Source: a virus. Taken from it: 20,101 bases of DNA. Position numbers and translations under genes: made by a program. The notes below the pieces were generated by a model, which worked only from the letters and a program-made list of their open reading frames with translations, was not told the origin of the DNA and ran no database searches. The stretch spans positions 1-20,101 of the IMG/VR virus record IMGVR_UViG_3300029286_000304; one strand, given 5' to 3'. Shown here in pieces: positions 5,678-18,176 of the stretch (position 1 is the stretch's first letter; every line of letters begins with the position of its first letter).

Positions 5678-5695
5678 TGCCTTTTGAACTTTTTT

Positions 5696-5890
5696 TTACT
5701 TTCTGATTCCTGTTTGCGTATAATAAGGATGGCCCTGCGATAATGCCCATTTTAGTTCATTCCACAAGGCCGCCCATTCTGTGTCCGAAAGTTTATCCGG
5801 ATCCACGTGAAAATATATCCTTAAAAGTGCATTGATTTTCCTTGTGTTATCTTCGCCATCCCTTTCATCAATGGTTGTCTCCTCTAATTT
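5696..5890 (-). CDS. Tail assembly chaperone, -1 frameshift extension
   Basis: From the A9 run at the end of the upstream chaperone gene the -1 frame stays open for 64 codons: KLEETTIDERDGEDNTRK, then INALLRIYFHVDPDKLSDTE, then WAALWNELKWALSQGHPYY, ending in GIRK and a TAA at 5698-5696. There is no in-frame ATG; the only alternative starts (GTG, TTG) lie deep inside. The region therefore explains the otherwise empty 206 bp between chaperone and tape measure and fits the gpG/gpGT (lambda), E/E' (P2) and gp41 (Mu) arrangement, where a minor fusion product helps load the tape measure. It stops 18 bp before the tape measure start. Confidence 0.8.
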   Translation of the reverse strand, partial: KLEETTIDERDGEDNTRKINALLRIYFHVDPDKLSDTEWAALWNELKWALSQGHPYYTQTGIRK

Positions 5891-6201
5891 TTTTTTAAAG
5901 TAGCTTTACGGTAAGTTATCATTTCATCAACCACAGTACATGCCGAAATAAATAATTCATCATCATCCATTATGCGTTTGTCACCCCCAAGATAACCATT
6001 GCGAAGTATTATTTCTTTTGCCTTCAGCGGATCACGGTCCTGTATTGATAACGATAAGCTTAAAACCTGCCTGCCTGGCTTCTTAAAATAAGCTGTAACG
6101 GTGTTTTCTTCTTCGTCCTGGACTGATATTTCAAAAACAGTTTTTACCCCATGCTTTGCAGCAATTTCATCGAGAGTTGGTATTTTATTTTCTTCACTCA
6201 T
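5884..6201 (-). CDS. Tail assembly chaperone (short form), Mu gp41 position
   Basis: A 105-aa acidic protein: MSEENKIPTLDEIAAKHG, a beta segment (VFEISVQDEEENTVTAYFKK), then PGRQVLSLSLSIQDRDPLKA and a helical C-terminus (FISACTVVDEMITYRK). Position between tail tube and tape measure, size, and a terminal slippery run feeding a -1 frame all identify it as the short form of the tail assembly chaperone. The gene ends TTA-AAA-AAA-AAT-TAG. The short form normally exceeds the long form and coats the tape measure during assembly. Confidence 0.8.
   Translation of the reverse strand: MSEENKIPTLDEIAAKHGVKTVFEISVQDEEENTVTAYFKKPGRQVLSLSLSIQDRDPLKAKEIILRNGYLGGDKRIMDDDELFISACTVVDEMITYRKATLKKN
5887..5899 (-). 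promoter_or_regulatory. Programmed -1 frameshift slippery site (chaperone)
   Basis: On the minus strand TTT is followed by nine A. Read in the chaperone frame this contains three overlapping canonical X_XXY_YYZ heptamers: T_TTA_AAA (5899-5893), A_AAA_AAA (5896-5890) and A_AAA_AAT (5893-5887). The zero-frame stop TAG follows at 5886-5884. A -1 slip on any of them enters the 64-codon extension. I see no strong downstream hairpin, so efficiency may depend on the long A run itself. Confidence 0.8.
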
Positions 6202-10666: not shown

Positions 10667-10715
10667 TTACTTATTACTTATTACTTTTTACTTGTTACTT
10701 TTTACTTTTTACTTT
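10667..10715. repeat. 7-bp tandem repeats (7 units) before the capsid gene
   Basis: Seven consecutive heptads on the + strand: TTACTTA, TTACTTA, TTACTTT, TTACTTG, TTACTTT, TTACTTT, TTACTTT. They fill the spacer and include part of the fibre-gene stop codon. In the sense strand of the genes this reads AAGTAAN repeats, followed by an A-rich leader to the capsid start. Confidence 0.9.
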
Positions 10716-11808
10716 ATTCAATCAAATCAGCAGCCCATGCAGGAGAACCGGAAACCATTTTCAGTACCTGTCCGTCAGTGCCTTTTGGGATAATTGTCCA
10801 TGCAGTACCGCTCCAGTATATAATGTCACCAGCAGCTACACCATCGGCAAGTTTTGCAAGTGTTACATTTTTATCTTTTATTTTAGCGGTTTCAACTGCA
10901 TCAGCTGCAATTTGTCCTGCTGTTATTGCAAGATCATCAATCTTTGAAGTTTCAATAGCTTTAGCAGCGATATGTTCAGTATCAACAGCAAGATTTGCAA
11001 GCTGAGTACCTGTTACGGCAGCATCATCAATTTTAGCTGTTGTTACAGCTTTATCGAGAATCTTATCAGTGGTAACGGCATCAGAAGCAAGTTTGTCGGC
11101 TGTTACATTTGCGTTGAGAATCTTTGCGGTTGTTACAGCATCTGAAGCAAGTTTATCGGCTGTTACATTTGCGTTGAGAATCTTTGCGGTTGTTACGGCA
11201 TCCGAAGCAAGTTTGTCGGCTGTTACGTTTGCATTGAGAATCTTTGCGGTTGTTACGGCATCCGAAGCAAGTTTGTCGGCTGTTACGTTTGCATTGAGAA
11301 TTTTTGCAGTTGTTACGGCATCCGAAGCAAGTTTGTCGGCTGTTACGTTTGCATTGAGAATCTTTGCGGTTGTTACGGCATCCGAAGCAAGTTTTGCTGC
11401 TGTAACAGAACCGTCATCAACCACTGCAACATCAGCAGAAACAACAATGAATGCTGTGCCGTTGTATTTTGCAAATAAGTAACGGGTTTCTCCTGTTGGT
11501 ACCACAAATGAATTACCACTTATTCCGGTACCGAATGTAATGGTGCGGTCAGCAGTAATTGCTGAAATTTTTAAAAGCATTTCAGCGCCGGGAGTAACTT
11601 GTTCATCTGTTACAACCGAAATTGCAGCATCATGAGCCAGATCGGCAATGCTCGAAAAATTGTGCATTTCTTTTACAGGTATTGAAATTGTTGCCGATTC
11701 ATCAATATCCTGTGTCTCTGAGATTGGAAATAAAACTTCTTTTGTTTCAGTCAGGTGATCTGAAGGAACAAAATTTTCGGAATAAGGGGAACCTTTTTTT
11801 GTGTACAT
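10714..11808 (-). CDS. Repeat-rich fibre-like protein (head or tail fibre)
   Basis: A 364-aa protein. Residues about 1-130 form a beta-rich head domain (LFPISETQDIDESATISIPV, TADRTITFGTGISGNSFVVP). About 131-250 hold six copies of LASDAVTTAKIL or a close variant separated by NANVTADK (20-residue period), then diverged copies (KAVTTAKIDDAAVTGTQLA). The end (GDIIYWSGTAWTIIPKGTDG) is a common fibre C-terminal motif. Such A-V-T-T-A-K-I repeats make fibrous beta-helical shafts. The position between head protease and major capsid suggests a head fibre or decoration protein rather than a tail fibre, but this is inference from location only. Confidence 0.7.
   Translation of the reverse strand: MYTKKGSPYSENFVPSDHLTETKEVLFPISETQDIDESATISIPVKEMHNFSSIADLAHDAAISVVTDEQVTPGAEMLLKISAITADRTITFGTGISGNSFVVPTGETRYLFAKYNGTAFIVVSADVAVVDDGSVTAAKLASDAVTTAKILNANVTADKLASDAVTTAKILNANVTADKLASDAVTTAKILNANVTADKLASDAVTTAKILNANVTADKLASDAVTTAKILNANVTADKLASDAVTTDKILDKAVTTAKIDDAAVTGTQLANLAVDTEHIAAKAIETSKIDDLAITAGQIAADAVETAKIKDKNVTLAKLADGVAAGDIIYWSGTAWTIIPKGTDGQVLKMVSGSPAWAADLIE
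11071..11395. repeat. 60-bp in-frame tandem repeats inside the fibre gene
   Basis: About five near-identical 60-bp units, with partial units at both edges, align exactly at 60-base intervals between 11071 and 11395. Most differences are single third-position changes (for example ACATTT/ACGTTT, TCTGAA/TCCGAA), so the 20-residue protein repeat is conserved. Copy number could change by recombination or slippage. Confidence 0.95.
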
Positions 11809-15687: not shown

Positions 15688-16995
15688 ATGGCTAAAACAA
15701 CAACTGCAATCCGTAAAGCCGGTAAAATGCCTGCAAGTAAAATTGTGACTTATCAACTTGATATTCGTCAAATACAACGTACAATTGTTGATATTGAAAT
15801 ATGGCGAAGCGCTATTCAATCGGCAGAAAATATACAATTCCCACGCAAAATAAAACTATTAGATCTCTATTCCGATATTCTGTTGGATGCTCACCTGAGT
15901 TCAGTAATTGACAAGCGTAAAATTGCAGTTCTAAAATCACCCATCACTTTTGCAAAAGATGGTAAAGAAAATGAAGAAATATGTAAACTTATTAAATCTC
16001 CATTTTTCATCCAAATGATAACAGATGTTCTTGATTGCCGTTTCTGGGGACATACACTTATTGAATTTGAATTAACTCCTGATGCTCTTATACCACATCT
16101 TATACCACGTAAACACGTTGTTCCTGAGAAAGGATTAATATTGATAAATCAGAACGACCAGAACGGTTTGGAATATCGTGAAGCTCCATATTCAAATTTT
16201 ATGATCGAAGCCGGTGAGCCAGGCAATCTTGGTTTGTTAGTTAAAGCGGCGCAATATGTAATTTATAAACGTAACTGTTTAGCTGATTATAGCCAGTTTT
16301 CAGAAATGTTTGGTCAACCACTCAGGAAGGGAACTTATAATCCACAAGATGCCAACGGACGCACTCAACTTAAACAAAGTTTAGAGGAGATGGGCTCCAG
16401 CGCCTGGTGCATTTATCCGGAGGGAACAACTATTGAACTGATTGAATCGAATAGTAAAACAGGATCAGCAGATTTGTATTCAGGTTTAATTGAAATATGC
16501 AATAAAGAAATTTCAAAACTTATACTTGGTCAAACTTTAACAACAGACCATGGCGCTCAGGGTACACAGGCTCTTGGCACAGTTCACGCCGCAGTGGAGG
16601 AAGAAATTGAATTTGCCGACAAACTTTTTATACAGGGATTCCTGAATAATGAATTCAAAAATTTCCTTTTAAAACACGGTTATCCTGCCGATGGTGAGTT
16701 TAATTTTGTTGAAGATGAAGTAATGTCATTAACAACACGAAAAGACATTGACATCGCTTTAAATGGAATAATTCCTATTGGCGATGATTACTTCTACGAA
16801 ACCTATGGAATTCCCAAACCTGAAAACTATGATGAACTGAAGGCAAAGAAGGATGAAGAAAACGCAGCCCGCAACAATCCATTTTCTTTACCTCCTGCAA
16901 ATCCGGATCCCAAAAAAACAAACTCTAAACTCCCGGATCCCAACTCCAAACTAACTTTGTGGGATCGCCTTTTTTTTCAGTACGCCCGCGAATAG
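15688..16995 (+). CDS. Portal protein, DUF935 / Mu gp29-like
   Basis: A 435-aa portal subunit; twelve form the DNA channel at one capsid vertex. Marker segments: LYSDILLDAHLSSVIDKRKI (about 60-80), CRFWGHTLIEFELTPD (about 120), YSQFSEMFGQPLRKGTYN (about 205-222), and KEISKLILGQTLTTDHGAQG (about 273-292), all typical for DUF935. The C-terminal 50 residues are proline-, asparagine- and lysine-rich and look disordered. The last 13 codons overlap the F-like frame. The end CTT-TTT-TTT-CAG is a slippery site followed by a GC hairpin, so part of the ribosomes may continue into the F-like protein. Confidence 0.92.
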   Translation: MAKTTTAIRKAGKMPASKIVTYQLDIRQIQRTIVDIEIWRSAIQSAENIQFPRKIKLLDLYSDILLDAHLSSVIDKRKIAVLKSPITFAKDGKENEEICKLIKSPFFIQMITDVLDCRFWGHTLIEFELTPDALIPHLIPRKHVVPEKGLILINQNDQNGLEYREAPYSNFMIEAGEPGNLGLLVKAAQYVIYKRNCLADYSQFSEMFGQPLRKGTYNPQDANGRTQLKQSLEEMGSSAWCIYPEGTTIELIESNSKTGSADLYSGLIEICNKEISKLILGQTLTTDHGAQGTQALGTVHAAVEEEIEFADKLFIQGFLNNEFKNFLLKHGYPADGEFNFVEDEVMSLTTRKDIDIALNGIIPIGDDYFYETYGIPKPENYDELKAKKDEENAARNNPFSLPPANPDPKKTNSKLPDPNSKLTLWDRLFFQYARE

Positions 16996-18176
16996 CGGCG
17001 GGCAATTATGAACATCTTACCTCGTTCAATAATCTGTATCAACCCTGCGAAATATGCGGTAAGTTTCATTTTTCTGCATCCATTGATAAGAAGTACCAGG
17101 ATAAAATAAATAAGCGTGCCGATAAGCTTGCAAAGGATATTTATACAGGTAAATTCAAAGGCGATATAGATCCGGAACTTACAACTTTAGTTGCCGGTAA
17201 ATTAAAAGATGCAGTAATTCAGGGTTACGGCGCATCACTCCCTGAAGTAGCTTATAATTCGCCCGATTGGAATATGATCGCCAACCTTGATAAAAATGTA
17301 TATCAATTTGCAGCTGCAAAAAATTATCAGAATTTAAAGGATATTACAACAGCTTTAAAAGATAATGATGGTAACATCAGAAGCTTTAAAGAATTTCGGG
17401 AAGCTGCCGGAAAAATAAGTTATCAGTATAACACCGACTGGCTTAATACCGAATATAATACAGCTATCGGTTGCGGACAAATGGCCGGTCGTTGGGTTGA
17501 CTTCCAAAAAAATGCCGACAGTATGCCTTATCTGCAATATGTAACTGCCGGTGATGACAGGGTGCGTGAAGAGCATGCAGTACTTGACGGAGTGATAAAA
17601 CGCATTGACGATCCGTTCTGGGATATCTACTACCCTCCCAACGGATATAATTGCCGGTGCGACGTGATCCAGCTCCCGGGCGATGCTCAGGAAACAGATA
17701 CTGAAGAAATAAATAAGCCTGTTATTAATACGCTATTTCGCACTAACACTGCTAAACACGGATTAATATTCCCTGAAAAACATCCTTACTTTAAAGGTAT
17801 TCCTGATGACGTAAAGAAAGCTTCTGATACATTGAGTAGAACAACAGTAAGAGCATGGACACAATTACATGGCGAAGAAAAAGCATATAATAAAGTAATG
17901 GATGCGGATATAAATATTGAATGGCAGGGAATAAAGAAAGCTACCGATCAACCACATGACAATTATTATGCGAAAAATATTGCAATATATAAAATAGACA
18001 GGTTAATTACAGGAGCCAAAGAACATACTATTGTCCCTGATACTGAAGACAGAATTCTTAATTATCATTACCTGAAAATAAACATTGCGGGAAAAGACTC
18101 ATGGATTGTTATTAAAGAGAGAAAAGACAACTCATATCATCTTTATTCAATAGTAGATAAAATAAAGAAGGAATAA
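16959..18176 (+). CDS. Mu F-like minor head protein with C-terminal PBECR-type nuclease domain
   Basis: The frame gives 405 aa if it begins at the GTG 16959. The first in-frame ATG is only at residue 106, so translation starts at GTG or arrives by -1 frameshift from the portal. Residues 30-36 hold CEICGKFH, a possible metal knuckle. Residues about 150-238 are the Mu F / SPP1 gp7 domain: DDRVREEHAVLDGVI, WDIYYPPNGYNCRCD. Residues about 315-403 (QGIKKATDQPHDNYYAKN, ILNYHYLKINIAGKDSWI, SYHLYSIVDKI) resemble the PBECR (barnase-EndoU-ColicinE5/D-RelE-like) nuclease modules known on phage F proteins; H333, K339, H370 and K386 are candidate active residues. Such modules are proposed to enter the host with the DNA. 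The nuclease assignment is from pattern memory. Confidence 0.8.
   Translation: MGSPFFSVRPRIAAGNYEHLTSFNNLYQPCEICGKFHFSASIDKKYQDKINKRADKLAKDIYTGKFKGDIDPELTTLVAGKLKDAVIQGYGASLPEVAYNSPDWNMIANLDKNVYQFAAAKNYQNLKDITTALKDNDGNIRSFKEFREAAGKISYQYNTDWLNTEYNTAIGCGQMAGRWVDFQKNADSMPYLQYVTAGDDRVREEHAVLDGVIKRIDDPFWDIYYPPNGYNCRCDVIQLPGDAQETDTEEINKPVINTLFRTNTAKHGLIFPEKHPYFKGIPDDVKKASDTLSRTTVRAWTQLHGEEKAYNKVMDADINIEWQGIKKATDQPHDNYYAKNIAIYKIDRLITGAKEHTIVPDTEDRILNYHYLKINIAGKDSWIVIKERKDNSYHLYSIVDKIKKE
16971..17003 (+). promoter_or_regulatory. Candidate -1 frameshift signal at the portal/F junction
   Basis: In the portal frame T_TTT_TTT (16971-16977) is a canonical slippery heptamer. After a 6-nt spacer (CAGTAC) comes a hairpin with stem GCCCGC (16984-16989) and GCGGGC (16998-17003), six GC pairs with an 8-nt loop that includes the portal stop TAG (16993-16995). 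A -1 slip continues in the F-like frame without interruption. Confidence 0.65.

Follow-up and report, generated by a model that had tools for sequence, protein, structure and literature searches.

Organization of the portal–MuF junction

The sequence analyzed here, referred to as the window, comes from a Mu-like phage and spans 20.1 kb (viral record IMGVR_UViG_3300029286_000304, positions 1 to 20,101); its relatives are phages and prophages of Bacteroidota. A portal gene is followed in it by an overlapping open frame for a MuF head protein (Table 1). The portal is of the Mu type, scoring 264.8 bits against Portal_Mu (curated cut-off 23.9), and the MuF protein scores 65.4 bits against Phage_Mu_F (cut-off 29.6). 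The MuF domain adjoins the portal, as in MuF polymorphic toxins, and the C-terminal LPD3 domain occupies the position at which the relatives carry variable effectors. By profile match this C-terminus belongs to LPD3 and to no known toxin family or recognised nuclease family; the label 'nuclease' used in the initial annotation is appropriate for some relatives, which carry PBECR2 or PBECR3, but finds no support in the LPD3 match of the window. Elsewhere in the window, the minus strand at 10714–11808 encodes a predicted protein with tandem repeats of the VTADKLASDAVTTAKILNAN type, which is probably a fibrous structural protein.

Table 1. Genes, domains and signal elements at the portal–MuF junction of the window
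Feature	Position	Strand	Evidence and remarks
Portal gene, frame 0	15688–16995	+	435 aa; stop TAG 16993–16995; ORF and Pfam Portal_Mu PF06074, E 1.6e-78
MuF open frame, −1 relative to portal	16929–18176	+	Phage_Mu_F PF04233, E 1e-17; LPD3 PF18798, E 1.4e-7
GTG, alternative start	16959–16961	+	Not conserved, absent in L003; rejected as the main start
Slippery heptamer T_TTT_TTT, in portal codon phase	16971–16977	+	Sequence; last 7 nt of a T8 run, 16970–16977
6-nt spacer CAGTAC	16978–16983	+	Sequence; 6-nt spacing common among relatives
Candidate stimulatory hairpin	16984–17003	+	GCCCGC 16984–16989 / loop GAATAGCG / GCGGGC 16998–17003
MuF part translated after the predicted slip	16977–18173	+	Stop 18174–18176
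Phage_Mu_F domain of the predicted fusion	17364–17669	+	Residues 136–237 of the ORF counted from 16959
LPD3 domain, C-terminus of MuF	17838–18134	+	Residues 294–392 of the ORF counted from 16959

In portal codons, the junction reads CGC CTT TTT TTT CAG TAC GCC CGC GAA TAG, followed by CGG CGG GC. The heptamer lies in the zero-frame phase and follows the X_XXY_YYZ pattern of a canonical −1 frameshift site, and the candidate hairpin has a 6-bp stem composed entirely of GC pairs, with the portal stop in its loop. The initial annotation, which proposed a programmed −1 frameshift here, had placed the heptamer, the 6-nt spacer, the all-GC stem and the −1 MuF frame correctly to the base. It had also included the position of the stop codon within the loop; this holds in the window but is not conserved, the stop being located before, in or after the hairpin in different relatives, and the stop in the loop was rejected as a component of the mechanism because of this variation. 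Slippage at the heptamer would generate a portal–MuF fusion of 829 aa with a computed mass of 94.3 kDa, in line with the earlier estimate of roughly 90 kDa. Taken alone, the hairpin of the window is unremarkable, with a folding energy of −14.2 kcal/mol, a z-score of −1.5 and 14 of 200 shuffled sequences folding equally well; the case therefore rests on comparison with relatives.

Distribution of junction layouts among relatives

Relatives were drawn from viral contigs, bacterial genomes and phage records; in each of them, profile searches identified the ORFs of portal and MuF, delimited from stop to stop. Among 133 portals nonredundant at 95%, MuF was found at −1 in 110, in a single ORF with the portal in 15, at +1 in 7 and in the same frame but apart in one. 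After additions, the census comprised 152 nonredundant relatives, of which 103 were split and 25 fused with a T6 signal; A runs were present in a further five fused and four split loci, one split locus carried G_GGT_TTT, one fused locus had no signal, and 13 showed other arrangements. The split layout was also detected in isolates, namely hankyphage p00 and Elizabethkingia phage TCUEAP3, and in type strains, while the fused layout is represented by phages of Porphyromonas gingivalis.

Some distant relatives lack the T6 signal and have A runs, separate genes or, in locus L227, a fusion. L227 is the sole in-frame fused member of its clade in which the slippery heptamer has been lost. A runs replace T6, in split or fused form, in L039 (Winogradskyella phage Peternella), L211 (Flavobacterium phage fF4), L013, L112 and L017, and likewise in L043, L203, L245 and L246. 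These junctions are mostly devoid of an evident GC hairpin and are possibly another route to the same two products. In L021, L022 and L025 a long T run is found at the junction, MuF is at +1 rather than −1, and the GC hairpin is absent; polymerase slippage or sequence errors may account for these three loci and for the distant A-run loci without a hairpin. The signal is kept in L118, L129 and L186, where the MuF ORF is disturbed.

Conservation of the heptamer, spacing and stem

In the 133 nonredundant relatives, the in-phase heptamer T_TTT_TTY was found at 120 of 9,169 junction codon positions versus 3 of 46,546 positions in the portal bodies, an enrichment of about 200-fold, and the two wrong phases at the junction yielded only 15 and 9 occurrences. 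In 96 of 116 loci, exactly 6 nt separate the heptamer from the first G–C pair of the stem. A 5′ arm at this fixed place is followed shortly downstream by its perfect 6-nt complement in 95 of 114 loci, compared with 3.7% when the arms of other loci are used. This arm-swap comparison takes the fixed place in all T6 loci, and the arms themselves are diverse, with 31 distinct 5′ sequences (e.g., GCCCCG, GGACAG, GCCCGT, GGCCTG and GCTCCT).

Covariation was assessed on 36 junctions of equal length: all 216 of 216 cells were paired, and 32 had changed on both sides. None of 500 shuffles was comparable, and none of the slid registers came near to either value. Since this set was chosen for a 6-bp stem and a single loop size, the complete pairing is partly a product of selection, a bias from which the arm-swap comparison is free. 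Conservation of the heptamer and hairpin in related phages, which the initial annotation had named as a check of its proposal, is thus borne out: both are kept in more than 100 nonredundant relatives, and the stems covary strongly.

Start of MuF translation

The only start codon in the MuF frame upstream of the conserved part of the window is GTG 16959, and the first ATG is at 17274, codon 106 counted from this GTG, exactly as described in the initial annotation. Upstream of the slip site within the MuF ORF, ATG is absent in 101 of 102 split loci, and ATG, GTG and TTG are all absent in 87 of them; in 69 of the 102, the first ATG lies inside the MuF profile match or past its start.

The pattern of substitutions gives an independent view of the frame in use. 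In 17 independent close pairs, third-position substitutions follow mostly frame 0 before the slip site and frame −1 after it, and the switch is visible within the first 30 nt. Over the 98 codons between the slip site and ATG 17274, comparison of the window with L071, whose portal is 76% identical, gave a dN of 0.44 and a dS of 1.09. Because relatives lack starts before the slip, the frame of selection switches there and dN is below dS, GTG 16959 cannot be regarded as a conserved start, and its proposal as an alternative site of initiation did not stand up.

A retained signal in fused loci

In a substantial minority of relatives, portal and MuF form a single ORF. Fused loci that keep both the slippery heptamer and the GC hairpin include L041, L214–L228, L018 and L232–L244. 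Across 30 nonredundant fused T6 loci, the codon preceding the site ends in T in all 30, the next codon is TTT in all 30, and the third is TTC in 28 and TTG in 2, with GC arms at the usual place in nearly all. Genewide, TTT makes up 48% of the phenylalanine codons of these loci, yet it is invariant at the slip site; similarly, GGG accounts for 18% of glycine codons, yet it is the usual glycine codon of the 3′ arm. This codon usage indicates that the codons are fixed beyond the need of the protein. Unexpectedly, the signal is retained where the genes are already fused, and slippage there would release plain portal. In one fused clade of 14 rows (SH-aLRT 99) the heptamer is present in 13, and the portal tree implies that T6 loci switched between the split and the fused layout at least eight times, a count that is approximate because the quick tree has weak branches.

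The tau/gamma −1 frameshift of dnaX, a cellular gene, uses A_AAA_AAG with a downstream hairpin and an upstream Shine-Dalgarno-like stimulator; the hosts of the phages considered here hardly use Shine-Dalgarno sequences. As in dnaX, a heptamer is followed by a hairpin, and in the fused relatives frame 0 would give the long product and the slip a truncated one. Unlike dnaX, the heptamer is T_TTT_TTC, the system resides in phages, and the opposite layout also exists within the same family. The 30 fused T6 loci show the elements of a dnaX-like site: a single ORF encloses the heptamer and hairpin, and a −1 stop follows nearby. The −1 stop, reached 18–90 nt on, was dropped as evidence, as 82% of random positions have one within 90 nt; the argument for the fused layout accordingly rests on the heptamer and stem. 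We read this layout as dnaX-like, with the fusion encoded in frame and a truncated portal predicted to arise by slippage, in which case both layouts would yield portal and portal–MuF.

Alternative explanations

MuF could instead be translated on its own, either through independent initiation or through termination–reinitiation (in the window at GTG 16959, in other loci at starts close to the portal stop), with the heptamer and hairpin being incidental. This GTG is indeed present, an ATG in the MuF frame is located within 20 nt of the portal stop in 24 of 103 split relatives, including hankyphage, and a GTG or TTG in 20 more; in the outgroups Mu and Faecalibacterium phage FP_Mushu, portal and MuF are separate, overlapping genes, and the Mu record has a ribosome-binding site annotated for the F gene. 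However, 59 of the 103 have no start within this distance, ATG codons are nearly absent before the slip, and the first ATG often falls within the MuF match or past its start. Nor does separate synthesis account for a heptamer kept in phase, a hairpin that covaries, a change of frame exactly at the slip site or a signal within fused genes, and we consider it extremely unlikely; in the 24 loci, the ATG close to the end of the portal gene could nevertheless add some separate MuF.

Transcriptional slippage, in which RNA polymerase would insert an extra U at the T run and ribosomes would translate the altered mRNA in one frame, appears very unlikely to us. The T8 runs of the window and L071, the T7 run of L003, and the distant relatives with A runs or with a long T run and no hairpin, among them the three loci with MuF at +1, are compatible with it, but in most relatives the run stops at T6 before a C, which is short for polymerase slippage. 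Moreover, a slipping polymerase requires neither a hairpin 6 nt downstream nor a codon phase, both of which are strictly kept. An artefact or an unrelated element (sequencing error, a decayed gene, a transcription terminator or another RNA element) has a probability close to nil. Although the window is one metagenomic contig and homopolymers are error-prone, sequencing error was rejected by an identical second contig (L002) and by isolates and type strains that share the layout. The excess of dS over dN after the slip also counts against this reading, and a search of Rfam gave no match. A terminator was rejected as well: on this strand the T run precedes the hairpin instead of following it, and on the other strand it reads as an A run.

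Proposed mechanism and dose of MuF

Three features characterize the junction as a frameshift site: the in-phase heptamer, an RNA structure within the expected 5–9 nt downstream, here the covarying GC stem after a 6-nt spacer, and a −1 ORF under protein-level selection from the slip onward, as indicated by the frame switch and dN < dS. At the sequence level, the comparisons demonstrate the signal, its phase and spacing, covariation or pairing, codon-level conservation and the frame switch. Very probably, a canonical signal for −1 programmed ribosomal frameshifting is located at the 3′ end of the portal gene, and both plain portal and a portal–MuF fusion are made. The frameshift proposed in the initial annotation is thereby supported, the signal being conserved, the GTG or ATG start not, and the coding frame switching at the slip. 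We conclude from the genome comparisons that −1 programmed frameshifting is widespread among the Mu-like phages that infect Bacteroidota, hankyphage being one of them.

T_TTT_TTY would be read by tandem tRNA-Phe, and the P- and A-site tRNAs would slip into the −1 frame while the GC-rich hairpin delays the ribosome. Ribosomes remaining in frame 0 would reach the portal stop and produce plain portal, whereas those slipping back one base at 16977 would enter the MuF frame and produce the fusion, of 94 kDa in the window. In the fused layout the signal would act in reverse, frame 0 giving the fusion and the slip a shortened portal. Fusion and plain subunits may co-assemble in the portal ring, perhaps with the fusion on a few subunits, as the initial annotation suggested; if the fusion joins the ring, a covalent link would tether the MuF domain and its variable effector to the portal within the head. 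Portal C-termini face the head interior, which would place the MuF part there, and the number of MuF copies in the head would be set by slip efficiency.

In the split layout, a slip of 8–17% would correspond to one to two MuF per 12-mer, and the fused layout would give the converse ratio unless the efficiency is near one half. Given these converse ratios, either the dose would be loosely constrained or slip efficiency substantial; the tolerance of both layouts suggests that it is not small, perhaps near one half. We somewhat favor the view that a single small signal doses a head-borne MuF effector, with a mixed ring being selected and attained through either of two interchangeable layouts. The C-terminal domains of MuF among 65 relatives include PBECR2 (11), LPD3 (10), Gln_amidase (4), PBECR3 (4), CdiA_C (3) and ADP-ribosyltransferase (1). 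This repertoire of nuclease-like PBECR2/3, glutamine deamidase, CdiA_C, ADP-ribosyltransferase and LPD3 domains, as annotated by profile, fits effectors carried with the DNA.

Relation to known systems and significance

A closely comparable case in phages is the −1 frameshift of the lambda gpG/gpGT type in tail assembly genes (Xu, Hendrix and Duda 2004, cited in PMC8008677 and PMC6316719). As there, a slippery heptamer is located near the end of a gene of the structural module, the slip would extend a minority of the product, and the arrangement is conserved over a wide phage diversity despite sequence variation. Unlike there, the partners are a portal and a MuF head protein, conservation of the hairpin is strong, and the layout also occurs inverted. 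On the minus strand of the window, a 105-aa ORF (5884–6201) upstream of the tape measure gene ends in TTA AAA AAA AAT TAG; past its A9 run (about 5888–5896, minus strand), the −1 frame runs on for about 60 aa without a start codon (about 5690–5900). This is likely a classic G/GT-type tail chaperone frameshift, which would give the phage two recoding sites.

The adjacency of MuF to the portal and the variability of C-terminal effector domains are shared with the MuF polymorphic toxins (PMC5576092, PMC11699363). The MuF protein gp7 of SPP1 is drawn to the procapsid by strong portal binding, with a copy number of one or two; when virions lack gp7, only about 25% are infectious (PMC6316719, PMC5576092). 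Unlike gp7, a separate gene product bound to the portal non-covalently, MuF would here be linked covalently and dosed by frameshifting. In-frame portal–MuF fusions are known from Microbacterium phages (PMC7302621), and these, like the P. gingivalis fusions (PMC10367356 group), combine the same two proteins in one polypeptide; whereas the fusions are described or annotated there as plain, the Bacteroidota ones retain a conserved frameshift signal at the junction. The mechanism itself is of a known kind; for a frameshift at the portal–MuF junction, or for two interchangeable, paired layouts, no earlier report was found in the open-access literature, an absence that does not constitute proof.

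If the proposed frameshifting is true, it would be the second widely conserved frameshift of tailed phages, beside that of the tail chaperone. The signal is found in prophages of the dominant gut genera Bacteroides, Phocaeicola and Prevotella, as well as in isolates such as hankyphage, and many annotated MuF proteins would then be missing their true N-terminal part. The paired natural layouts allow the assembly ratio of portal to portal–MuF to be tested, and frameshifting would provide these phages with a mechanism for placing a set number of MuF effector domains in the head.
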